64,000 nucleotides of DNA from a virus, in the IMG/VR virus record IMGVR_UViG_3300022907_000005, positions 32,484-96,483 of that record, one strand, 5' to 3'. This document shows, in pieces, positions 4,574 to 64,000 of the stretch. The notes below the pieces were generated by a model. The model ran no database searches. It saw nothing but the letters and a program-made list of their open reading frames with translations, and was not told the DNA's origin. Every line of letters starts with the position of its first letter. The stretch's first letter is position 1. The position numbers and the translations under genes are program-made.

Positions 4574-5728
4574 TTACTTTTTGACTGCTTTGCTAATAGA
4601 CTGCGTGTATATAGCCATTGCATTGTTTTCGGTAATGAATTCTTCTTCTACCGTATCTTGCATTTTGTCTTCGGTTGTAGCCTTAACCTTAGGGAAATAA
4701 TTCTCTTTGATTACAGATACTTTCTCAGCAAACATGTCTTCAGTATCAAACTCAACGTTCTCAACCAATTTAGCAAGTTTTTCGGCTTCTGTTACGGTCA
4801 GATCAGTAGACGCTTCAGTTAGTGCCTGTTGACGTTGAAGTGCTACTTTTTCAGAAACCATTGCAATTTTCTCTGCAACGTTCTCGTCCAACTTAGTCTT
4901 CAGTTCATCAATTTGAGTCTGCATTTCACCTAGTACGTCATACTTCTCAGCAGGTACTTCGATGTAATGATCTTCAAACAAGCCCTTCATGCCTTTGATA
5001 AAGTCTTCAGTAATTTCTGTCCTGAGTCCTCGCTCAATTGCAAGTTCGTTTTCCTTCATCCAATTTTCAGCAACATATGAAAGATACGCATCGATCTTCT
5101 CGACCATATCAGTACGGAACTCTTCTTCCGCTAATTTTGCTTCTTCTCGAATGTCAGATTCAATAGCGTCAATTTCTGATGCTACTCTAGCAGTTAGTAC
5201 TGCTTCAAAGATAGATGCAGCTTTTACTTTGAAGTCTTCGCTTAGATGTTCTTCGTCAGCAAATAGTGAAGCGATATCATGCTCTACTAGTTCACTTTCG
5301 TCTTCAGCGGAAATTTCTTCTACTTCATCTTCAGCGATAACTTCCTGATCTTCTTCAACTTCTACTTCTTCCTCTTCGCGGACGCCAGCAGATGTTGGGT
5401 TGTTTACAACAGACGCAGAGTCTGTGCCACTGTCATAGTTTGGAGCTTGTCCAGCGCCGTTACCTTTAGGCAGTGTTGTGTCTTTGGATGCTTTTGCAGA
5501 TGCAGCTTTTCCAACAGGTGAAGTTAATCCACCTTTGTCATCTGATCCTGATAAGTCTTCCTGTTCTGGATTAGCATTTGAGTCACCCTGTGTAGGGATA
5601 GTCTTGTCACCAACATCTTTCGAGTTTGGTAAACCAGCCTTTTCCTCAATGCTTTGAGCTTCTTCAACAAGGGTGTCTACTTCACCGACCTTGCCAAGGA
5701 GCTCTCTGATTTTGGATTCAACAGCCAT
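4574..5728 (-). CDS. 22: Prohead scaffold core protein gp22
   Basis: This 384-residue, highly acidic protein lies between the prohead protease and the major capsid gene, the fixed place of T4 gene 22. The product forms the inner scaffold of the prohead and is cut to small peptides by gp21. A poorly conserved acidic stretch (about residues 115-160, many E and D) is followed by long predicted coiled-coil helices (about 165-300) rich in A, E, K and L, as expected for a scaffold. It is longer than T4 gp22 (269 residues) because of a low-complexity N-terminal region with many G, S, D and N. Own late promoter at 5760-5767. Confidence 0.88.
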   Translation of the reverse strand: MAVESKIRELLGKVGEVDTLVEEAQSIEEKAGLPNSKDVGDKTIPTQGDSNANPEQEDLSGSDDKGGLTSPVGKAASAKASKDTTLPKGNGAGQAPNYDSGTDSASVVNNPTSAGVREEEEVEVEEDQEVIAEDEVEEISAEDESELVEHDIASLFADEEHLSEDFKVKAASIFEAVLTARVASEIDAIESDIREEAKLAEEEFRTDMVEKIDAYLSYVAENWMKENELAIERGLRTEITEDFIKGMKGLFEDHYIEVPAEKYDVLGEMQTQIDELKTKLDENVAEKIAMVSEKVALQRQQALTEASTDLTVTEAEKLAKLVENVEFDTEDMFAEKVSVIKENYFPKVKATTEDKMQDTVEEEFITENNAMAIYTQSISKAVKK

Positions 5729-5759
5729 TTAATGTCTCCTTAAAGTTTGTTAACTTGTT

Positions 5760-5767
5760 TATTTATA
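5760..5767 (-). promoter_or_regulatory. T4-type late promoter for gp22
   Basis: Exact TATAAATA on the minus strand, 31 nt upstream of the gp22 ATG, in the short gap after the gp21 stop. Confidence 0.75.
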
Positions 5768-5772
5768 TAAAT

Positions 5773-6429
5773 TTAAATTTTGGATAACTTGTTCAAGAAT
5801 GAGCTAAACACCTGAATCTTCGCTTCTTCTAGTTCACGGCTAGATGCTTTGCGAATTGTTTGTTGTGCCTGTTCCATATCCCTTGCAGTCCAGATACCGT
5901 CAACCATTACCCATTCTCTATTTTCCATAATACCTTCAACATATGCATCTGGTGCAGAAGGATCTGCTACGATGTCAGCGGCTGTTGCCAGCATAAAATC
6001 GTTTTGGACTTCATTGATTCCATTCTTTTCTTTAATGGATCCAAGCCCTCTTGAACTGACGCCTAACTGAGCGCCTGCTTCAATTAAATTAGCTGCGATT
6101 TTTCCCATTGGAGTGTCTAAAATCTTAGCTTTACCTATCCAGTTATCGCCGTCTTCTTTCAATGATACGATCATGTGTGACACGCGATCAAGATTAAGTG
6201 ACGGTCCTTCTGGGTGACCAAGTTCGCCTAATGCTCTCTTCTTGTCAATACTTTCGGCGGTGTATCGTGCGACTTCATTTCGCATAACTTCTTTAGGGTA
6301 TACTCTGCCGTTACGATTTTTTAAATTTGATTGTAGGAAAACGCCCTCGATGAAAAGATTCTTCTTTCCATCTTTGCTTTCTTCTAAAAAGTATTGAACG
6401 TCTTCATTTAATTCTTTGATTAATCTCAT
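5773..6429 (-). CDS. 21: Prohead core protease gp21
   Basis: This 218-residue serine protease matures the T4-type prohead by cutting gp22, gp23 and core proteins. The family catalytic residues can be placed: His in GELGHP (H72) and Ser in GVSSRG (S125 or S126), with acidic residues in the following LATAADIVADPSAPDAYVEG segment. Length is close to T4 gp21 (212). Its ATG overlaps the upstream stop (TAATG), so translation is coupled to the gene before it, and gp22 follows directly. Confidence 0.95.
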   Translation of the reverse strand: MRLIKELNEDVQYFLEESKDGKKNLFIEGVFLQSNLKNRNGRVYPKEVMRNEVARYTAESIDKKRALGELGHPEGPSLNLDRVSHMIVSLKEDGDNWIGKAKILDTPMGKIAANLIEAGAQLGVSSRGLGSIKEKNGINEVQNDFMLATAADIVADPSAPDAYVEGIMENREWVMVDGIWTARDMEQAQQTIRKASSRELEEAKIQVFSSFLNKLSKI

Positions 6430-17058: not shown

Positions 17059-19893
17059 TTATTGGTAGAAAATATAAAATCTACCAGTGGTGTGATTGGT
17101 GTTCAGAACAACATTTTCTGATGAAAATTTTGTTGGCCCATACTCATAAAGCGATAAATTGTTGGTATCCCTATAAGCCATAAAACTATAATCGCTTCCA
17201 GTTAGAGTGGCACCTGATGTTTCACTCCACCAATGTACTCTAAAGCTAGTAAAAAACCCAAAGTTATTTGGATTGATTGTTGTTGTAGGTGCAGGCTTAA
17301 CGTTAGCACCCTCAATTGTCGAGCGAGCAACCATCGCATAATTCTCAAGATTATCTCCCCACACATACCAAACACGATTAGCTGTTGTGGCTGCTCGTAC
17401 AGCTTGGAAAGCTGAGTCACTTAATATAACGTTAGTGGAATCTGAAGGAAGTGGATTACCTTCTGTAACACTGACTCCGCCAACTGGTTGCCAATCTGGT
17501 GAGTTAAACGTAGCAACCAACGTTCCGTAGGTTGGATGAGTATAATTACCTACAGAAATCGCATCTGTACCTAATGACGTAACACTGCCAGACGTACCTC
17601 CGCCTTCTGTATAGTTAGCAGTGACGGTGATAACAGCGTCCAGATCTGCTTCTACTAGTGTATATGTAGTAGCGGTGGCACCTGTAATAGCTACCCCGTC
17701 TCGATTCCACTGATAACTGATGGCACTGATGCCATCACCATCAGCCAGATTATTAGAAGCAGTTAGCGTTGAGCCTAGTATTGATTCACCATTAATAATC
17801 GCAGTGCCTGTTGTTAAGTAGTACGCCTCAGTTGGTCCTGGGCTATCATACATAAAATTCCCAACACTACTGCGTACTATCAATGTAAGCGCATCGCCAG
17901 ATAAGTATACGCTGCTAAATTTAGTATACGATGAAACATCTGGTAATATTGGCACAGGATCTTGTGCCCAGGTTTCTCCTGTTTTAGTAAAGGATCGTAC
18001 TATACCTGTGTTGTCATCACCGACCGCGATATTGCTACCTGATACAATTCTGTCACCTGAGTTACTCATACTGTTGTATGTAAATATATTACCGTCAGGC
18101 GAAGTTATATCAGCTTGCTGCGTCCAGGTTGCGTCTGATCGAGTGAATAAGTTAAGCGCAGTAGAAGTAAAGTCCCGTGAGATTAAGGTATTTCCATCAC
18201 CCGATAACTGGAGCCCGCCACCGAAATAAACATACGGGTCCGTGCCGTCGCTTATCTTGGCCTGGAAGTTGTATGTGTGAGGCCAGGAGAAACTGCCATC
18301 TACAGCTCTGTTTCGTGTATAGATATATATGGCACCAGCGGTGGAGTCGTCGGCAGTGGCACCGATGGCGAGGGTACTTGCATCATTAGAGATCTTAACA
18401 TCAGATCCATACCGGGCTCCGGCTTCTTGTTGGCCTATAGTAGAAGCCAGCAGTTTGATCTGATTGCTAAATCCCTGGCCATGGGCGGCACGTTGATAAA
18501 CATAAACAGCACCAGCATCAGCGCCAGCTGCATCTTCCCACTGGGCACCGGCTATTAGAGTGTTACCATCACCAGATATACTGACTGTGCTGCCAAACTG
18601 ATCACCATCCTGTTTATCACTGGCTTGTAGATACTGCGTCAGTGACCAGGATGTACCATTTCTGCTATAAACATAAGCGGCGCCCGCGTTGGCAGGAGTC
18701 TCTCTTTGCCTTCTACTGCCTACAACAATGGTATTGCCATCATCAGAGATTGCGCAACTATATCCGTAGATATCACGGTCGCCTGACAGGTTGCCACTAC
18801 CCTGATATGTAGCCTGTATTGCCCAGCTTGAGCCTGTCCTAGCAAGGAACCATGCCTTTCCTGCATAATCTGCCGTGGTAGTCTGATATGCGTTAGTATA
18901 GACAGCAGTGTTGCCGTCGCCTGAAATAGCAAATGTTTCTTTAAGTGGGCCCACTGTGGTAGGCTGAATTAAAGTGCCTTCTTGTATGTAAATAGGATCC
19001 GGTAGAGGTTCTGGAGCTACCGTCGACCACATAGACTCACCCCAACTGTATGTACCTGAATGTACGCCATGAGTATTATTGTTAGCAGACAATTCATAAG
19101 TAGTAGCATCCATAGTCTGCGCTGTTACTGCATTAGTTAGCGTTGCACCGGTGGTGCCAGGAGCATATCTAAATGCATTATTATTCAGAATTAGACCTGA
19201 CCCGCCAGCATAGTCGTTTGTACCATTTTCAGTAGTGTAAAAACTACAGTTGTTTAACACAGACGTGTTAACTTGACTATTGTCATACTGTAAAGCCCAG
19301 TTACCATTCGCATTGGTTTCTTGAAACACACAGTTGTAAAAGTCACCTTGGCTGTATGCCGTCGAACCGTTAAACATGCCTACAGAATAAGAGTTTGATT
19401 TTCCATTGTTGTTTCTTTTTAGAATTGCGCCATACACTGCGCTATTAGTGTTTTGTAAGTTTACCATAGCGGCATCACGTTGAGCAGTGGTAGCCGTCCA
19501 CTGAAATACCACCTGTCCAGCTGCACAAAAGAAAGTTCTAGGTAAATTGCCATCGCTGAACCCAGCAGTAGTAAATTGTGGTACCTGTGGGCCTACTGTA
19601 ACTGGTGTAAGATCATAAACGCCTGGCTTGATCACATACATTACAGCAGTGCCGATGGCAGCAGTCTGAGATTGAGCATAACTTAATGTCTGATAAGCAG
19701 TAGCATCAGTGTCTCCATTATTACTGTCGGACCCATTGGTGATATCAATATACTTTTTATCACCTGAAAATGAATTGATAAAGCTAGTAGCCACCGAGCC
19801 AAAATTTGGGACAAACGGGATAACCGGATCTAAGAAACGTTTTAGTGTTTTACCTGCTAGAATTTTACCTGAAAATGATGTAATACGTGGCAT
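17059..19893 (-). CDS. Large adhesin-like tail fibre: beta-helix, seven-repeat propeller, Ig-like domain
   Basis: This 944-residue protein has distinct parts. Residues about 45-290 look like a pectin-lyase-type right-handed beta-helix (GSDSNNGDTDATAYQTLSYAQ, then repeated short strands). Residues about 310-690 hold seven FG-GAP-like repeats of the type 'GDGNTxxxGA...VYxR', as in integrin-alpha propellers. Residues about 700-780 resemble an Ig-like bacterial domain (ISYQWNRDGVAITGATATTYTLVEADLDA). The C-terminal 160 residues are unassigned. No transmembrane segment. It lies within the fibre cassette, so it is probably a receptor-binding or glycan-binding fibre; it could also be an enzyme on sugar polymers, but I see no catalytic residues. 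Confidence 0.75.
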   Translation of the reverse strand: MPRITSFSGKILAGKTLKRFLDPVIPFVPNFGSVATSFINSFSGDKKYIDITNGSDSNNGDTDATAYQTLSYAQSQTAAIGTAVMYVIKPGVYDLTPVTVGPQVPQFTTAGFSDGNLPRTFFCAAGQVVFQWTATTAQRDAAMVNLQNTNSAVYGAILKRNNNGKSNSYSVGMFNGSTAYSQGDFYNCVFQETNANGNWALQYDNSQVNTSVLNNCSFYTTENGTNDYAGGSGLILNNNAFRYAPGTTGATLTNAVTAQTMDATTYELSANNNTHGVHSGTYSWGESMWSTVAPEPLPDPIYIQEGTLIQPTTVGPLKETFAISGDGNTAVYTNAYQTTTADYAGKAWFLARTGSSWAIQATYQGSGNLSGDRDIYGYSCAISDDGNTIVVGSRRQRETPANAGAAYVYSRNGTSWSLTQYLQASDKQDGDQFGSTVSISGDGNTLIAGAQWEDAAGADAGAVYVYQRAAHGQGFSNQIKLLASTIGQQEAGARYGSDVKISNDASTLAIGATADDSTAGAIYIYTRNRAVDGSFSWPHTYNFQAKISDGTDPYVYFGGGLQLSGDGNTLISRDFTSTALNLFTRSDATWTQQADITSPDGNIFTYNSMSNSGDRIVSGSNIAVGDDNTGIVRSFTKTGETWAQDPVPILPDVSSYTKFSSVYLSGDALTLIVRSSVGNFMYDSPGPTEAYYLTTGTAIINGESILGSTLTASNNLADGDGISAISYQWNRDGVAITGATATTYTLVEADLDAVITVTANYTEGGGTSGSVTSLGTDAISVGNYTHPTYGTLVATFNSPDWQPVGGVSVTEGNPLPSDSTNVILSDSAFQAVRAATTANRVWYVWGDNLENYAMVARSTIEGANVKPAPTTTINPNNFGFFTSFRVHWWSETSGATLTGSDYSFMAYRDTNNLSLYEYGPTKFSSENVVLNTNHTTGRFYIFYQ

Positions 19894-19903
19894 ATATTTC
19901 GCC

Positions 19904-21349
19904 TTACACCGAACCGAATGCTGTTACAGTTCCGAGAACCGTCCAAGCACCAGCAAACCTAATAAGGGTAAAACTAGCAATATCAGTAGCACTCGGAGTT
20001 GACGTAGGAGCTGATGCGCCTTGCCATAAAATTGTCTGAGCCGCACCATCAATCTGAACGGCAGTGGGTAAATACCCCGTGGCTCCTTGACTAATAATTA
20101 GTGCCGCAGAGAGAGTTCTATCATCAGTAGTCGGCACATTAGTAAAGTTAGCAGTGAAATCAGCAGCTACCGAACTATGTATAAACAACGATCTAGAAGT
20201 GATGTCATGAGTAACTACACCGGTTGCACCAGTTAATGTTGTTGCTATTTCCGTAGTTGAACCAAAAGTTGTTAAAGCAGTAAATGATGTAGTAGCAGCA
20301 GGAGGTGTATATGTAAACACACCAGTTGAGTTATCATAAGCAACAGCACCGTCACCTGATGCAGGTGCAGCGGCGCCTACTGAGATATCAGTTAGTGCTA
20401 TTCCTCCGCCACTGCCGATCTCAGTATAATTAGTACCGTCGTTTGTAAATGCCCAATAACCTTCGCTTTCGTCCCAAATTAACGCAACATCAGCAGCTGA
20501 GCCTCTGTTAACGCTTATACCAGCATCTTCAGTTGGAGTGCCGGATGCATCTCTGTTCAATTCGATAATGTTGTCTGCTAAACTTGTAATCTGCGAGTTA
20601 ACAATAGTTTGTGTGCCACTGATTGTGACGTTGCCGTTAAACACTGCGTCATCGCTGTATGTTTTAGCACCTGCGATAGTTTGTGGACCACTGGTTCGGA
20701 CCACTGTGCTGTCTGCTGTCAGGACGCCTGCACTGACGGACACACCATCGCTGCCGGTGAGATATGATGTACCATCAACATATGCTTTTACTGACTGTTG
20801 AGATGGCAATCTAGTAGCACTATTGGAAGAAAAGTTATCTTCGTCAATGAGTGCCGCGGTAATTCTTGCATCTGCTCTAGCATTTGTAAAGTATAGATTG
20901 CTTGACCCTTCACTCAATTCATCAGTGTCTGCTGCTCCAGCAGTAATACTAGCAGTAGTAACAGCGGTCACTCTACCTTTCGCATCTACTGTGACAACAG
21001 GAATAGCCGTAGAGCTACCATAACTAGCAGCGGTGACACCTGAATCAGGAGTTGATATTGTAACCGAGTCTGTGCCTACTGCAACATCAATTTGATTCGA
21101 TGTGCCGTTGACTGTAAGAGGAGTATCAGTTCCTACAACAATGGTAAAAGTATTAGTACCGTCACTAACAGTCCAACCCGCTGTTGAGTTACTTAGGTCA
21201 GCCCTAGCAAATTCTATTCCACCACTAGTAGATCCGTCATGCAAATGCAATGACTTATTAGTAGTGTTTACTGTCAGTTCACCTTCTGCTCCAGTGAACG
21301 AAGACATATCTGAATTGGAACCACGTCTTAACTGTAGTTGCGTAGGCAT
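19904..21349 (-). CDS. Modular tail fibre protein
   Basis: This 481-residue fibre begins MPTQLQLRRGSNSDMSSFTGAEGELTVNTTNKSLHLHDG, the same N-terminal module as the 200-residue fibre at 16405. It carries the EGSSNLYFTNARADARI motif and a STAIPVVTVDAKGRVTAV strand pair that recurs in the fibre at 21898. A later segment, GNVTISGTQTIVNSQITSLADNIIELNRDASG, is found in many marine phage fibres. The C-terminal 150 residues are beta-rich and more variable. Likely part of the host-binding apparatus. Nine bases separate it from the adhesin gene. Confidence 0.8.
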   Translation of the reverse strand: MPTQLQLRRGSNSDMSSFTGAEGELTVNTTNKSLHLHDGSTSGGIEFARADLSNSTAGWTVSDGTNTFTIVVGTDTPLTVNGTSNQIDVAVGTDSVTISTPDSGVTAASYGSSTAIPVVTVDAKGRVTAVTTASITAGAADTDELSEGSSNLYFTNARADARITAALIDEDNFSSNSATRLPSQQSVKAYVDGTSYLTGSDGVSVSAGVLTADSTVVRTSGPQTIAGAKTYSDDAVFNGNVTISGTQTIVNSQITSLADNIIELNRDASGTPTEDAGISVNRGSAADVALIWDESEGYWAFTNDGTNYTEIGSGGGIALTDISVGAAAPASGDGAVAYDNSTGVFTYTPPAATTSFTALTTFGSTTEIATTLTGATGVVTHDITSRSLFIHSSVAADFTANFTNVPTTDDRTLSAALIISQGATGYLPTAVQIDGAAQTILWQGASAPTSTPSATDIASFTLIRFAGAWTVLGTVTAFGSV

Positions 21350-58042: not shown

Positions 58043-58957
58043 TTAATCGTCTTCAGCTAATGCTGCAAAGTAACTAAGTGTATCTTCCTCATCAGCACTT
58101 GAAGCGACTGTGACTCTGGAAGAAGTAGCAGAGTTAACCGCCATCAAATCTTCAACATCATCAGTGCCTGTCTGTGCTGCAATAGTCTCAGCAGTGGTCA
58201 CTCTCGCGCCTCCCGTGAGTACTTGATTCAGCTTAGCCTTCAACTCATCATAAGTCTTGAAGTTCTTAGGATCAACCATCTCAGCAAGTGAATGCTGCTT
58301 GCCCCAGATTGCTTCAATCTCTTCATCAGAGTCTGCAACCGCAGAAGGAGATGATTCAAACTCAGACTTGTCGTAATTACGATAGCCTTCTACCTGACGC
58401 GCCTTCAACTTGAAGTTAGAACCTTCCCAGAAGTCAAAAGGATTTGATGCTGTTTCATCTTGAAACTCAGGTTGCATCTGATCTTTGATCTTGTCAAAGA
58501 TTTTCTTACCAAACTTGTAAAGCATTACCTGACCCTCGTTCTGAGGATTAGCAGGGTCTTTTACTACAAGAACATTTGCGTAATAAGACAATCGACGCTT
58601 TTGCTTTCGTGCGATGTCCTTACTAGATTCAACACCACTGTTCCAAAGTTCGCTGTTCAATTCTGATACAGGATCTTGTTGATTCAAAGTAGTAAGTGAG
58701 TTCTCAATGTACCACTTACCTGTAGGACCTTGAAAGCCATGATTCCATAAACGAACCCAGGGAAGTTCTTCACCTTTAGGGGGAGCAAGAAAACGTAAGA
58801 CAGCATACCCATTGCCAGCAGAATCTACTGTGAGCTTCCATTCGTTACCGTTGTCTCGGCCTTGTTGTTTAGGGGAATCGATCTTTTCAACTTCTTTCAT
58901 CAAGTTGTCGAAAGAGCCTCTTGCTTTGCGCAAGTCTGATAGGGAATTAAATGACAT
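58043..58957 (-). CDS. 32: Single-stranded DNA-binding protein gp32
   Basis: The 304-residue product (T4: 301) has a basic N-terminal B domain (SLSDLRKARGSFDNLM), an OB-type core (EWKLTVDSAGNGYAVLRFLAPP... LSYYANVLVVKDPANPQNEGQVMLYKFGKKIFDKI, near identical to the T4 core [33 protein letters not shown]) and an acidic C-terminal tail (DEEDTLSYFAALAEDD) for partner binding. No cysteine is present, so the zinc site of T4 gp32 is lost. The gene order 33-59-32 is as in T4. GGAG precedes the ATG, and its leader has a hairpin. Confidence 0.96.
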   Translation of the reverse strand: MSFNSLSDLRKARGSFDNLMKEVEKIDSPKQQGRDNGNEWKLTVDSAGNGYAVLRFLAPPKGEELPWVRLWNHGFQGPTGKWYIENSLTTLNQQDPVSELNSELWNSGVESSKDIARKQKRRLSYYANVLVVKDPANPQNEGQVMLYKFGKKIFDKIKDQMQPEFQDETASNPFDFWEGSNFKLKARQVEGYRNYDKSEFESSPSAVADSDEEIEAIWGKQHSLAEMVDPKNFKTYDELKAKLNQVLTGGARVTTAETIAAQTGTDDVEDLMAVNSATSSRVTVASSADEEDTLSYFAALAEDD

Positions 58958-58991: not shown

Positions 58992-59018
58992 ATAGTGTCC
59001 TGTATTAGCGGACACTAT
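58992..59018 (-). promoter_or_regulatory. Leader hairpin upstream of gp32, possible autogenous operator
   Basis: ATAGTGTCC pairs with GGACACTAT in a perfect 9-bp stem around a 9-nt loop, 34 nt upstream of the gp32 ATG. An A-rich unpaired stretch and the GGAG follow. T4 gp32 represses its own mRNA through an upstream structure with an unstructured A-rich run, so a similar operator is possible. No U tract follows, which argues against a terminator. Transcripts from the late promoter at 59019-59026 would lack part of the stem. Confidence 0.5.
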
Positions 59019-59593
59019 TATTTATAATGCCCACAAACAGCGAATTTTAGTTCTTCGCTGATTTGGACAAATGGACGATACTTCTTGATCAACATGTTGG
59101 TGTCTTCTAAGAAGATATCATCAGCCTCTATAGTAACATAATTGTAGAGTTTGTCAAGTGCTACAATCGTTTCTAAAGAAATCATTTTACCAAAATACAA
59201 TCTGTACACTAGAGGATGTCTCCCTGCGTGTGCATCAAAAGGAGAAGTCAATTCTTCTTTCTCCATTTCATAATCTATCTTGGCGATGTCTTGTTTAAAA
59301 CTGTACGCAAAGTTTTGTCGCACAGCCTTCCATTCTAAATATCGTTCCTTTGATTGCAAGTCAAACATTCCGCCCCAGCGATCACCGGATACAAAGTTAG
59401 CAACAAGAAAATCAATTGCTTCTTTGCGGCTGTAGTCTCTAGCGATCTTACGAATTGCAGTCAAGTCTTTTCGCTTCATAAAAGATTTTTGACTAGCTCT
59501 AACAGCACCCTTTGTTTTAGTGATGTCGTAATCCTTCTTTGTGAAGTGCAGTTTGAGTGCTAGGTAGAGTTTATATACTTCAAACGGTTCCAT
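59018..59593 (-). CDS. 59: Replicative helicase loader gp59
   Basis: I use the ATG at 59593 (MEPFEVYKLYLALK); the longer frame opens only with TTG. The 191-residue product matches T4 gp59 (217) in order: VYKLYLALKLHFTKKDYDITKTKG (T4 SVYKLYLMIKQHMNGKYDVIKYN), then AIDFLVANFVSGDRWGGMF (T4 ALIFISNLVANQDAWIGDI) and PLVYRLYFGKMISLETIVALDKL (T4 YIFKLLQSNIISFETFILLD). gp59 loads the gp41 helicase on gp32-coated forks. The gene starts two bases after the gp33 stop. Confidence 0.92.
   Translation of the reverse strand: MEPFEVYKLYLALKLHFTKKDYDITKTKGAVRASQKSFMKRKDLTAIRKIARDYSRKEAIDFLVANFVSGDRWGGMFDLQSKERYLEWKAVRQNFAYSFKQDIAKIDYEMEKEELTSPFDAHAGRHPLVYRLYFGKMISLETIVALDKLYNYVTIEADDIFLEDTNMLIKKYRPFVQISEELKFAVCGHYK
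59019..59026 (-). promoter_or_regulatory. T4-type late promoter for gp32
   Basis: Exact TATAAATA on the minus strand, 61 nt upstream of the gp32 ATG and overlapping the gp59 stop. Confidence 0.6.
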
Positions 59594-59595
59594 AA

Positions 59596-59892
59596 TCAAA
59601 AGGGTAGCTTGCCTGTTTTCTCTTTCATAAGATTTAGAGTTTCCGCTTCTTCTTTAACTTTTTCTTTAAGAGAAGGGGTCAAAAGTTTTCGGACAGATTC
59701 AATTTCTATCTCTTGTCTCTGGCAATAATCAACTAAACAATCAATCAATGGATTTTTAGTGTTGTATGCTTGTTTTTCAATGTACTGAGAAAATTCAACC
59801 TGTGTTTTGAATTGCTTAGTTATTAAAAATACGTCAGTCATTTTTGATGTATCGGTCATGTCATTGTCTACTATAAGTTTAAGTTTATGCAT
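59596..59892 (-). CDS. 33: Late transcription co-activator gp33
   Basis: The start at 59892 (MHKLKLIVDN) overlaps the epimerase stop by one base (TAATG). The 98-residue protein lies in front of gp59 and gp32 as T4 gp33 (112 residues) does. Residues about 35-75 (YIEKQAYNTKNPLIDCLVDYCQRQEIEIESVRKLLTPSLKEKVK) fit the helical core that binds the RNA polymerase flap, and the end MKEKTGKLPF fits a sliding-clamp binding tail (T4 ends LDFLL). gp33 links the clamp to polymerase at TATAAATA promoters. Confidence 0.82.
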   Translation of the reverse strand: MHKLKLIVDNDMTDTSKMTDVFLITKQFKTQVEFSQYIEKQAYNTKNPLIDCLVDYCQRQEIEIESVRKLLTPSLKEKVKEEAETLNLMKEKTGKLPF

Positions 59893-60746
59893 TACTGTCT
59901 TACCTTCCATTCGTGTATGTATTCGATCACATCAAATTCAGCTTTGATGTAAGGTAGCTCGCATTTAGTTTTTTCTACTTCACCTTTTCTATCAAATTCA
60001 AAAACAAATGGGTGCCCAAATGCCTCTGCTATTTCTAAAATTGTCTTAGGATCTCCTGCACCTAAATGAACCCAAGGAGGACGTTTTCCGTCGTGTGTTA
60101 GCAATAACTTTACGATGCCAGTAACAACATCAGTAACATAGGTAAAGTCTCTTTCTTTTCTACCATTGCCGTATATGTGTAGAGGTTCACCTTTTTTAAT
60201 TTGATTTTTGAATGCACGGACAACAGTGCTATGTTCACCGTAGTCAGCTTCTCTGGGACCGTAGACGTTGTAAAAATACAACAGATGCGATTGCACCTGA
60301 TACAATTTTTTGTACAGCCTCAGTGTTTCTTCCGCGAGAGTCTTACCGAACGTATAAGGATTTGCATACGGCGTACCTTGCAATCTACTAGATGACTGCG
60401 CAAAAAACACAGGGCACTCCCAATGTCTCGCCCATTCACATACTGATACTGTAGGACCCACATTATTCATAATAGAATCTGCTGGTTCTTGCATTGACAG
60501 CCTGACTCTAGGCGTATTCGCTAAGTGTATGATGCCATCAACTTGAGGAGTAGTCTCTTCAAACTTCACATCCTGAACTGCGCAATGAAGGTATTGCACA
60601 TAATTACTCTGTACAATATGTTCACCGTTTCGCTTATCGTCTACAACTGTGACATAACATTCCATTGCTGCAAGTGCTTCAACTAAATGCGAGCCTATAA
60701 AACCACATCCACCTGTAACGATGTAATGTGTCATGTTAAAAGCCAT
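59892..60746 (-). CDS. NAD-dependent sugar epimerase/dehydratase (extended SDR)
   Basis: The 284-residue enzyme has the NAD-binding motif TGGCGFIG (residues 11-18), an acidic end of strand 2 (VVDD, about 34-37), catalytic S118-S120 and YTFGK (Y131, K135), and the sugar-binding ERDFTYVTDV segment (about 200). It belongs with UDP-glucose/UDP-xylose-type epimerases or dehydratases. With the many glycosyltransferases here it probably makes a nucleotide sugar for glycan or DNA modification. The end overlaps gp33. A second in-frame ATG at 60734 is possible. Confidence 0.87.
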   Translation of the reverse strand: MAFNMTHYIVTGGCGFIGSHLVEALAAMECYVTVVDDKRNGEHIVQSNYVQYLHCAVQDVKFEETTPQVDGIIHLANTPRVRLSMQEPADSIMNNVGPTVSVCEWARHWECPVFFAQSSSRLQGTPYANPYTFGKTLAEETLRLYKKLYQVQSHLLYFYNVYGPREADYGEHSTVVRAFKNQIKKGEPLHIYGNGRKERDFTYVTDVVTGIVKLLLTHDGKRPPWVHLGAGDPKTILEIAEAFGHPFVFEFDRKGEVEKTKCELPYIKAEFDVIEYIHEWKVRQ

Positions 60747-60748
60747 AA

Positions 60749-61306
60749 TTAACGCCTATAAAATATATGATTGTCTGCAACCATTACCATCTCCATACTG
60801 TCTTTCCAGTAAGGCTCTACATACTTAGCATGATAAAACAGAGATCCTTCTGTAGTATCAATGCCTGCATTATACACTATTTCAGCAACATCGAACACCT
60901 TTTTGTATACAGACTGGTCGGCTACAAAATCTGGTTTGCCATCACAATACCAACTAAATTGACATTTGTTTCTCAGTGGAACTTTCTTACCATGCGCCTC
61001 TTCCCACCATTTAGAATACTGTGCTTGATAAACAACCTCGCACACTGTATTCGGAAACCTAGATGATTTCACCCTGTTCAAGGTAACACTAGCAACAGCA
61101 ACCTGTCCAGTGATTGTCTCTCCTCTAGCCTCATGATATATGTTGAGTGCTAGGCAAACTACTTCGGGGTTTATTGGAGTGGGTACAATGTATGTCGCCT
61201 TGGTTGCAATTGGAACTGGAGACAATTCTTTTCGAGGATCTACTTTTTCGCCTTGACAAGAAAAGCACCCGAGCAGTATGATAAAAATCATAAGACCTGT
61301 ACGCAT
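60749..61306 (-). CDS. SleB/CwlJ-type cell wall hydrolase, lipoprotein signal
   Basis: The 185-residue protein begins with a lipoprotein signal (MRTGLMIFIILLGCFSC; lipobox LLGC, C14) and contains the Hydrolase_2 catalytic pattern CLALNIYHEARGE (E59 likely catalytic), then QVAVASVTLNRV, FPNTVCEVVYQ, CQFSWYCDGKPD and LFYHAKYV. Such enzymes are lytic transglycosylases or amidase-like cell wall enzymes. Since gp5 has no lysozyme, this may be the endolysin or the envelope enzyme at lysis; lipid anchoring suggests membrane attachment. AAGGAG precedes the ATG, just after the tmRNA. Confidence 0.85.
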   Translation of the reverse strand: MRTGLMIFIILLGCFSCQGEKVDPRKELSPVPIATKATYIVPTPINPEVVCLALNIYHEARGETITGQVAVASVTLNRVKSSRFPNTVCEVVYQAQYSKWWEEAHGKKVPLRNKCQFSWYCDGKPDFVADQSVYKKVFDVAEIVYNAGIDTTEGSLFYHAKYVEPYWKDSMEMVMVADNHIFYRR

Positions 61307-61329
61307 TAGATTGCTCCTTTAACGTAAGA

Positions 61330-61668
61330 AATTGGGTTGCCTCTCCTTTTGGTAACAAGGCGAGAGACTCTCCCCGCTAACTTATGCAGCTAGTTGATAA
61401 ACGTCATCGTTTGCGTTTAGATTGTTTGCTTCTCAGTTTTACAGCCTTCTGCCTTGGCTGGCTCTCCACGCATCTACTACACCCTGTCGAAACCTGACTC
61501 CCCCATCAAAAACAAACTGCCTGCGGTATCTGCCTCCGCGTAACCACGCGTTCGTGGTAACTTAGTCTTTTCGTAGCTTTGCCACTTCTAGTTCAAGACA
61601 GTTTGCTTTTGGTGGAGGAGGGGGGAATCGAACCCCCGTCCAGTATGCCATCAAATTGCTTCATCAAG
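61330..61668 (-). ncRNA. ssrA: Two-piece circularly permuted tmRNA
   Basis: On the minus strand the acceptor piece comes first (about 61668-61610): T arm GGGGG-TTCGATT-CCCCC, then CTCCTCC, A and an encoded CCA ending at 61610. An intervening loop follows (61609-61505), closed by a 9-bp stem between 61597-61605 and 61513-61521. The coding piece begins at 61504 with GGGGGAG, which pairs with CTCCTCC in a 7-bp acceptor stem whose third pair is G-U, the alanine identity pair. It continues with TCAGGTTTCGACAGG as in other tmRNAs. The tag frame (61414-61382) is GCA AAC GAT GAC GTT TAT CAA CTA GCT GCA TAA, that is ANDDVYQLAA-stop. It ends in a hairpin-rich region near 61330; exact ends are estimated. 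tmRNA rescues stalled ribosomes with host SmpB. A late promoter lies directly upstream. Confidence 0.93.
61382..61414 (-). other. tmRNA proteolysis-tag reading frame
   Basis: Resume codon GCA followed by nine codons and TAA encodes ANDDVYQLAA. The end LAA matches the degron recognised by ClpXP, and the start AND is shared by most proteobacterial tags. Confidence 0.9.
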
Positions 61669-61673
61669 CTATG

Positions 61674-61681
61674 TATTTATA
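61674..61681 (-). promoter_or_regulatory. T4-type late promoter directly upstream of the tmRNA
   Basis: Exact TATAAATA on the minus strand. Transcription would begin near 61668, at the 5' end of the acceptor piece, and could continue into the cell wall hydrolase gene. Confidence 0.75.
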
Positions 61682-61699
61682 ATACGATATACGGAGCGG

Positions 61700-62359
61700 T
61701 TAGTCAATATCTATTTTCATTTTTTGGTACTCTTCAGTCCATTTATCGCTGTACATTGTGTTTTCGTAACCTTCAAACCAAGGACCGCCATCAGTATAAT
61801 GTATTGCTTTAGGATTGTCAAGCAAATAATAGTCATCTAAGCAGTTCCAGTCAAGTGATAATGATCCGATGTTTTCGGTCCAATTGAATTGATGAAAATC
61901 TAACCCAGGCTTATGATTGTTGAGATACTCTGGTCTGAGTTGTTTACAATCAGGATGTGCGTTGTTGAACACCATAAGACTCGCCCAGTTCTTTCTATAG
62001 TAACTGTTCTGAGTCATCGAATCCATCTTCTTATGTGAATTGGGTATGTATCGAGGATGTTGCGCACACCAAACTGCTTTTGACTGATCAGCTATTGCAA
62101 TATCAATCAGTTCTTCAGGGTCTGCTAAAAACAGAAAATCACAGTCAACAAATATTGAATACCCTGTGTATCTTGAAAGATACGGCACCCAGAATCGAGT
62201 GAATGTAAAATCTGTAGACTGGCGATCACCCGATCTCGTATATAGGTCAATATCTTTACTGTAAAGTTTGCGAGTGTCTATGACGCTGCGACTTTCAATA
62301 GAGAATTTACATACCTCGTAAGCAATATCTTCACAAGGATCATAGCCTATGTAAATCAT
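61700..62359 (-). CDS. GT8-like glycosyltransferase
   Basis: The 219-residue protein starts MIYIGYDPCEDIAYEVCKFSI, typical of this family, and has the metal motif FVDCDFLF (D72-x-D74) after TRFWVPYLSRYTGYS, then WASLMVFNNAHPDC and FNWTENIGSLSLDWN. This is the pattern of small GT8-type glycosyltransferases found in T4-like marine phages. Its ATG overlaps the stop of the SHMT gene by four bases (ATGA). Substrate unknown. Confidence 0.8.
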   Translation of the reverse strand: MIYIGYDPCEDIAYEVCKFSIESRSVIDTRKLYSKDIDLYTRSGDRQSTDFTFTRFWVPYLSRYTGYSIFVDCDFLFLADPEELIDIAIADQSKAVWCAQHPRYIPNSHKKMDSMTQNSYYRKNWASLMVFNNAHPDCKQLRPEYLNNHKPGLDFHQFNWTENIGSLSLDWNCLDDYYLLDNPKAIHYTDGGPWFEGYENTMYSDKWTEEYQKMKIDID

Positions 62360-63519
62360 CCCTCATAAGTCTCTGGGTCAGATAAAAGCAAATCACATAT
62401 GTCTTCTGCTATTTGTTCACACTCTTCAACGGTAAACCCAAGTGTTGTGATTGCCGCAGTTCCTAAACGAATGCCACTAGTCTCAGTAAATGATCTAGGG
62501 TCGTTGGGTACGCCATTCTTGTTTACTGTGATTCCTTCCTCTTCTAACAGATCAGCGGCTGCTCTACCACTCCAAGGAGTGTCGCTTAGATCCATAAGTA
62601 TGATGTGACTATCAGTCCCCTCTGTAAGCACCTTTAAACCATTGTCCATGAACACGTTTGCCATAGCTTGTGCGTTATCAATTACATCCTGCGCATATTC
62701 ATCAAAGTTCTTGGTGTTCGCTTCAATAAAGCATTGTGCCTTTGCTGCAATAACATGCATGAGAGGACCACCTTGTGTTCCAGGGAAAATTGCACTATTG
62801 ATCTTTCGCGTGTATTCTTCAGTGTTCCAAAGAATTATTCCTCCCCTAGGTCCACGCAAAGTTTTATGTGTTGTAGAAGTAACAACATCTGCATAAGGCA
62901 CGGGATTAGGATATGCGCCGCCTGCAATCAAGCCGCTGTAGTGAGCCATATCTACTAACAAGTACGCACCTACTGAATCAGCAATCTCCCTGAATCTACT
63001 CCAGTCGATAACTCTAGGATATGCGCTTGCACCCGCGACAATCATCTGTGGCTGTACTTCGTGTGCTTGTGCTGCAATAGCATCATAGTCTAAGAACCCA
63101 TCATCATCAACCCCATATGAGAATGAGTCATAGATCTTGCCTGAGAGATTCACCTTCGCGCCATGTGATAGATGTCCTCCGCTGGCAAGATCCATGCCCA
63201 AAATTTTGTCTCCAGGTTTTAGAAATGCCTGATAGACTGCTGTGTTTGCATTCGCGCCGCAGTGTGGTTGAACATTTGCAAACTTACTACCAAAGAGCAA
63301 TTTAGCTTGCTCAATAGCAAGTGTCTCAATGTCGTCCATGTTTTCACAGCCGTTATAGTAACGTTTGCCTGGATACCCTTCAGCATACTTGTTTGTAAAT
63401 ACTGACCCACACAAATCCATAACAGCTTGCGAGGCAAAATTCTCGCTTGCGATAAGTTCGATATCCATTCCCTGCCGCGTCTTTTCTTTCTCTAGAATTT
63501 TACCTATTCTGGCATCCAT
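62356..63519 (-). CDS. glyA: Serine hydroxymethyltransferase
   Basis: The 387-residue PLP enzyme interconverts serine and glycine and charges tetrahydrofolate with a one-carbon unit for thymidylate and purine synthesis. Family motifs are complete: ELIASENFAS, YAEGYPGKRYYNGCEN, SGGHLSHG, LLVDMAHYSGL, the PLP lysine in TSTTHKTLRGPRGG (K219) and FPGTQGGPLMHVIAAKA. It is slightly shorter than bacterial GlyA (about 415-420) at the ends but the catalytic core is intact. An AGGAA lies before the ATG. As a phage gene it is an auxiliary metabolic gene for nucleotide supply. It overlaps genes on both sides. Confidence 0.95.
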   Translation of the reverse strand: MDARIGKILEKEKTRQGMDIELIASENFASQAVMDLCGSVFTNKYAEGYPGKRYYNGCENMDDIETLAIEQAKLLFGSKFANVQPHCGANANTAVYQAFLKPGDKILGMDLASGGHLSHGAKVNLSGKIYDSFSYGVDDDGFLDYDAIAAQAHEVQPQMIVAGASAYPRVIDWSRFREIADSVGAYLLVDMAHYSGLIAGGAYPNPVPYADVVTSTTHKTLRGPRGGIILWNTEEYTRKINSAIFPGTQGGPLMHVIAAKAQCFIEANTKNFDEYAQDVIDNAQAMANVFMDNGLKVLTEGTDSHIILMDLSDTPWSGRAAADLLEEEGITVNKNGVPNDPRSFTETSGIRLGTAAITTLGFTVEECEQIAEDICDLLLSDPETYEG

Positions 63520-64000
63520 ATAACAGTTCCTTTTTTTCTATGTTGATGCAATTTATACATTGATTTTAGTGTGCGATTTGCAGCTTCCTGTTGTAAGGTG
63601 TTGTCCATAGCAAACTTGCTAAGAACTACTGCATTCGGAAATGATCTTTCTGTCAATTTGCGATTGCCTGATATTATCACAGACGGTACACCCAAGAATC
63701 TTGCTAACCACATAGCTGACCCGTGATAGCCAATTGCAAGTTTTGTGTGCAACAAAGTTTTTATTGCATCTGCAAGCGGTGTCTGATAATCGACAAATTT
63801 TTTATTCTCAAAGTTGTCGTAGATAGTGCTCCAATCACTTACTGGATCTTTCCATAACTTAGCTGAAGGTATAGGATAATCAGTAAAAGGAACTTTGTTT
63901 TGTTCTGTAGTTATGAATGTAACATAGTCTCCACGCCTAGACGCATTGCCAGGCTGCATCCAGTTATTAGATGCTAATCTGTAATTATGAAATTTATGCC
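63504..64000 (-). CDS. Glycosyltransferase-like protein, cut by window edge
   Basis: The frame is open to the right edge (no stop or clear start before 64000), so the N-terminus is missing; an internal ATG at 63957-63959 is unlikely to be the true start. The visible 165 residues include ADAIKTLLHTKLAIGYHGSAMWLARFLGVPSVIISGN, the C-terminal nucleotide-sugar-binding pattern of GT-B enzymes such as GT9 heptosyltransferases (a conserved H-G-S followed by 'a..lG.P.v...g'). It overlaps the SHMT start by 16 nt. Confidence 0.6.
   Translation of the reverse strand, partial: HKFHNYRLASNNWMQPGNASRRGDYVTFITTEQNKVPFTDYPIPSAKLWKDPVSDWSTIYDNFENKKFVDYQTPLADAIKTLLHTKLAIGYHGSAMWLARFLGVPSVIISGNRKLTERSFPNAVVLSKFAMDNTLQQEAANRTLKSMYKLHQHRKKGTVIWMPE

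Follow-up and report, generated by a model that had tools for sequence, protein, structure and literature searches.

The stretch of viral DNA analysed here (the window; 64,000 nucleotides, positions 32484-96483 of a 96,483-base viral record that is an incomplete contig) belongs to a marine-type, T4-like (Kyanoviridae-type) phage and carries on its minus strand an ssrA gene that is complete and circularly permuted. We consider it probable (roughly 0.75) that this gene is read both early and late, processed, charged, and used in tagging for ribosome rescue throughout infection. This reading builds on the anatomy of the gene, its maintained pairing, a late promoter superimposed on a sigma70 promoter, phage-only kinship, and the lack of an SmpB gene on the contig, all of them features of the sequence itself.

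Phage two-piece tmRNA is already known from a survey that counted 402 phages with tmRNA and 133 unique structures, with 53 two-piece, 50 of those aquatic (PMC9004378), and hence is not rare. A first-pass annotation of the window had described tmRNA genes as uncommon in phages, a view that did not hold: among loci from the viral-contig matches listed, which were gathered by two promoter-neutral scans, ARAGORN identified at least 205 permuted and 2 standard tmRNAs, comprising at least 162 distinct permuted genes, and annotated genes are present in the phages Melnitz and Mosig. New here are the composite promoter, the phage-only clade, the phage-typical tag, and an unrelated, helix-closed loop in a near-identical relative. 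Phage two-piece tmRNA, until now a curiosity, would thereby become a large family carried by phages, in which processing is conserved and tags are phage-typical.

Anatomy and setting of the permuted ssrA gene

ARAGORN called a single RNA gene in the 64-kb window, a permuted tmRNA at 61702-61291 on the minus strand with the tag ANDDVYQLAA. Covariance searches agreed, with scores above the gathering score for both RF04321 (98.9 bits versus 47, E = 5e-18) and RF01850 beta_tmRNA (90.9 bits versus 84, E = 3.9e-26), and the precursor folded better than shuffled sequences (z = -3.4). The Rfam E-values, the scores above the gathering score, and the fold exclude a chance origin. The first-pass annotation, which had proposed a permuted ssrA gene on this strand and had named Infernal with Rfam models and ARAGORN as the check, is borne out.

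Direct reading of the sequence places the acceptor piece, with its T arm and encoded CCA, 5' of the coding piece on the minus strand. The 7-bp acceptor stem (GGGGGAG/CTCCTCC, with a G3-U70 pair) can form only between the two pieces; it was read directly in the window, and a survey of such stems across ARAGORN calls is partly circular because the program itself favours paired stems. The tag frame begins at an Ala resume codon and ends with an AA degron and stop. Piece order, intermolecular stem, and tag frame were all recognized correctly in the first-pass annotation. Coordinates are given in Table 1.

Table 1. Features of the ssrA locus and neighbouring genes (window coordinates)
Feature	Position	Strand	Remarks
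Upstream ORF, phrog_28018	61700..62359	minus	function unassigned; neighbour anchor for finding relatives
sigma70 -35 hexamer TTGACT	61702..61707	minus	within last codons of upstream ORF (GAT ATT GAC TAA)
sigma70 -10 hexamer TATTAT	61679..61684	minus	3-nt overlap with late box
T4-type late box TATAAATA	61674..61681	minus	predicted start ~61668, the acceptor piece 5' end (inferred)
Acceptor piece	61610..61670	minus	P2 5' strand, T arm, CTCCTCC acceptor strand, discriminator A, encoded CCA; 5' end inferred
Intervening segment, 105 nt	61505..61609	minus	presumed excised; closing helix arms 61609-61596 and 61522-61509
Coding piece	61333..61504	minus	GGGGGAG acceptor strand, GGTTTCGACAG core, resume region, tag, 3' region; 3' end per beta_tmRNA model
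Tag reading frame ANDDVYQLAA and stop	61382..61414	minus	ARAGORN
Cell wall hydrolase (PF07486)	60749..61306	minus	downstream; near enough for co-transcription with ssrA
NAD-dependent epimerase family protein (PF01370)	59892..60746	minus	domain match
gp33-like late promoter transcription accessory protein	59596..59910	minus	phrog_254
gp59-like DNA helicase loader	59018..59599	minus	phrog_269
gp32-like single-strand DNA binding protein	58043..58957	minus	phrog_224

The window encodes gp33, gp59, gp32, and gp6-like proteins, and the phage also encodes gp55 and gp45. Among cultured phages, gp6 places it nearest to Melnitz (38%), HTVC008M, and Mosig; no DNA similarity to cultured phages was found across the whole ssrA gene. 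The order phrog_28018, tmRNA, cell wall hydrolase, epimerase family protein, gp33, gp59, and gp32, together with the annotated SsrA just upstream of gp33 in Mosig and Melnitz, indicates that the general neighbourhood is shared. An Rfam scan of window positions 59000-64000 recovered the tmRNA only, with no riboswitch beside ssrA, whereas Melnitz has one. No SmpB gene was found on the contig, and since the contig is incomplete, little weight can be put on a lack of SmpB or tRNAs.

Other genes of possible interest include a phage serine hydroxymethyltransferase (PF00464, 510 bits; 62356-63519, minus strand) two genes upstream of ssrA and, beyond the window, a peptide deformylase (contig 20280-20816, L087:280-816) and a ClpP-like protease (contig 18730-19320, L086:18730-19320). 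A phage ClpP was considered as a partner of the tag and rejected: PF00574 was detected in only 4 of 28 records, and the match on this contig, a weak one, could represent a head maturation protease.

A composite sigma70/late promoter at phage ssrA

The site preceding ssrA in the window, TTGACT-N17-TATTAT, matches the sigma70 consensus at 10/12 positions, a score that alone is common by chance but that belongs to a layout conserved across phage ssrA. The octamer TATAAATA occurs 17 times in the window versus 4.5 expected, with 16 of the 17 on the minus (coding) strand. This enrichment and the presence of gp55, gp33, and gp45 uphold the T4-type late box that had been noted beside the tmRNA. The accompanying claim of late-only expression is not supported, given that the box lies over a sigma70 promoter close to consensus.

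A late box was identified before 63 of 158 non-redundant phage ssrA genes, and in 62 of these 63 it coincides with a sigma70 site matching at 9/12 positions or better. The box starts at offset 0 relative to the -10 hexamer in 45 genes and at +3 in 13, and the spacer is mostly 17 nt. None of 44 bacterial permuted ssrA genes is preceded by a late box. The composite-promoter state requires 10 changes on the tmRNA tree. In the literature searched, no account of such a composite promoter at phage ssrA was found. A late box on a sigma70 promoter is a layout typical of phage ssrA, and from these motifs the promoter looks readable early by host machinery and late by phage machinery, a layout that predicts expression throughout infection. 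Outside ssrA in the fetched loci the octamer is not enriched (0.87-0.90 of the mononucleotide expectation), so for those phages its late role is a presumed one. A few composite sigma70/late promoters also precede protein genes rather than ssrA (L197:4403, L101:3479, and L138:3471).

Three simpler accounts of this promoter were weighed. It is unlikely that host sigma70 alone drives an early-only tmRNA, as proposed for Melnitz, where ssrA was assigned an early promoter only (PMC9004378), and that the late box arose fortuitously from an AT-rich -10 region. The near-ideal sigma70 spacing agrees with such an origin, but the exact octamer is over-represented at ssrA, being present at 56 of 82 ssrA sigma70 sites versus 20 of 793 other sigma70-like sites, counts that are not independent and carry inflated significance because the phage sequences are related. 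Moreover, in the offset-0 register the sigma70 -10 is TATAAA, a poor hexamer without the most conserved final T.

Somewhat less likely again is a late-only tmRNA, in which TATAAATA would be the sole driver and TTGACT present by chance. The coding-strand enrichment of the octamer and the phage-encoded gp55, gp33, and gp45 would be expected under this account; it is opposed by the occurrence of TTGAC[ACT] at the exact -35 spacing in 55 of 63 phage-ssrA late boxes versus 6 of the 293 found elsewhere in these loci, a contrast drawn from promoter-neutral samples and subject to the same relatedness. The background of 6/293 is a recount, an earlier figure of 33/313 having been too high because it included promoters of tmRNAs overlooked by ARAGORN. 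Among the 26 late boxes of the contig, the ssrA box is the only one with a -35 match of at least 5/6.

The third account, an improbable one, holds that the promoter serves a downstream operon of lysis or late-regulator genes, with ssrA as a passenger in the leader. The next gene has its own ribosome binding site, no terminator was found between it and ssrA, and two relatives (L008 and L012) retain the promoter despite deletion of ssrA. In L008, whose upstream gene is 82% identical, the composite promoter is joined to a 3'-terminal remnant of the coding piece (5560-5900); in L012 (5640-5760) and L014 the promoter is kept along with an apparent 5' end of the acceptor piece. The existence of close relatives without ssrA indicates that the gene is optional and dispensable in some phages. 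However, the genes directly downstream of the composite promoter and ssrA in phages fall into 13 clusters of proteins without detectable similarity, which suggests that the promoter goes with ssrA.

Loop, kinship, and tag

The intervening loop was previously described as closed by a 9-bp stem; the helix is present, but that length is too short, as it comprises 14 pairs with G-U allowed. A loop-end helix of at least 8 pairs was detected in 83% of 117 phage loops, versus 25% after 3' ends were swapped among loci. Comparison with the near-identical relative L004 is informative: the acceptor piece is identical at 61/61 positions, the coding piece at 179/183 (98%), and the flanks at 87/90 and 598/600, whereas the loops (105 nt in the window and 73 nt in L004) are no more alike than shuffles (likeness 0.74 versus 0.72), and each is closed by a helix. 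Unrelated loops, a kept closing helix, and unchanged pieces would be expected under selection for a cut precursor rather than for loop sequence. The retention of the closing helix across phage loci is indirectly consistent with excision into two mature RNAs. A presumably excised loop that changes quickly while the mature pieces on either side stay the same offers natural experiments on the processing requirements of tmRNA. The loops of Melnitz (L453) and L067 seemingly contain small ORFs with a ribosome binding site, which were not seen in the window loop.

In a tmRNA tree built without the tag columns, the window gene, L004, and five further phage genes with ANDDVY tags formed a phage-only clade of 7 (UFB 100, SH-aLRT 99), nested in a phage-only clade of 34 rows (94/95). 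Fourteen bacterial beta genes formed a separate clade (100/98), and the window gene did not group with them. The suggestion that the gene was captured from a bacterial lineage with two-piece tmRNA is therefore not sustained, its nearest kin all being phage genes; because it lies in a well-supported phage-only clade, the trees lend no support to recent capture from a betaproteobacterial host.

The 14 bacterial beta genes were themselves placed among phage genes with weak support, and an AU test keeps the alternative (p 0.38). It would be a doubtful step to read from these trees that phage ssrA represents an ancient lineage maintaining itself, equipped with tags of its own and an early-plus-late promoter, and that such phages were the source of the permuted ssrA of betaproteobacteria. 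A phage reservoir is nevertheless available for asking where bacterial permuted ssrA genes came from.

The ANDDVY tag pattern was plentiful among the viral-contig matches listed, and the same pattern had zero matches in 84,980 genomes of bacteria and archaea, in which a looser control pattern did find matches among those listed. A codon-free search for ANDDVY matched 1 of 369 genomes (class of a betaproteobacterial genome); the matching genome (L449, G142), gammaproteobacterial by class, has a one-piece tmRNA with the tag ANDDVYALAA, which rules out strict phage exclusivity. In the sequences searched, the tag is phage-typical and not phage-exclusive. Since ANDDVY is close to absent in the sampled bacteria, it is plausible that the window tag differs from that of the host.

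Proposed function and closest known systems

Under the favoured reading, in which the gene is expressed both early and late, host RNA polymerase would first read ssrA through the sigma70 promoter, and the gp55/gp33/gp45 machinery of the phage would later read it through TATAAATA, with transcripts beginning where the acceptor piece begins. The subsequent steps of processing, alanylation, SmpB use, tagging, and proteolysis are taken from established tmRNA biology. Host tRNA-processing enzymes would cut out the 105-nt loop to leave two pieces joined by the acceptor stem and P2, and host alanyl-tRNA synthetase would charge the product at G3-U70. Host SmpB would then bring the tmRNA to ribosomes stalled on mRNAs broken during the decay of host and phage messages in infection, and the LAA end of ANDDVYQLAA would direct tagged products to host ClpXP-type proteases. 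The outcome would be a phage supply of rescue RNA throughout infection that is independent of the host gene, and the benefit to the phage is likely ribosome rescue during mRNA breakdown in infected cells. A decoy RNA that shuts down host trans-translation by competing for SmpB, AlaRS, or ribosomes is very unlikely: a phage tmRNA without a CDS has been reported as an inhibitor of endogenous tmRNA in DS6A (PMC11915505), but here a full in-frame tag, stop, and LAA end are kept, as are tag frames across the surveyed phage ssrA genes. A phage-borne tmRNA family with expression predicted throughout infection opens the role of trans-translation in lytic infection to direct test.

Among known systems, the ssrA genes of Melnitz and Mosig resemble the window gene in encoding two-piece permuted tmRNAs of Kyanoviridae phages upstream of gp33 and gp59, and Melnitz shares the composite promoter (TTGACA-N17-TATAAATA). 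They differ in falling on the alphaproteobacterial side of the tree, whereas the window gene falls in its phage-only clade on the betaproteobacterial side, and in their tags (ANDNYVPVDYALAA and GEDNFALAA by ARAGORN reading, versus ANDDVYQLAA). Betaproteobacterial two-piece tmRNA (RF01850) is the best-scoring old Rfam model for the window gene, and the -10 of betaproteobacterial ssrA lies at roughly the distance from the acceptor piece that is seen in the phage. However, the betaproteobacterial genes have ANDERFALAA-like tags and CATAAT-like -10 hexamers without a late box, and the 3' terminator positions of the beta_tmRNA model are missing in the phage gene.

Stenotrophomonas phages of the genus Menderavirus (Moby, Bhz51, and kin) are, like the window phage, T4-like with a permuted tmRNA, and their cultured host is known; they provide a cultured phage with two-piece tmRNA and a gammaproteobacterial host. 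The loci were identified at OR797040.1 67979-68352 (L527) and MN095772.1 about 68052-68440 (L528), and in Moby part of the permuted tmRNA is annotated as a protein gene, CPT_Moby_106. Unlike the window gene, the Menderavirus tmRNA lies inside a tRNA array with no TATAAATA in the DNA just upstream, and its tag, by our reading from the resume codon, is ANDDSYTVRIAA.
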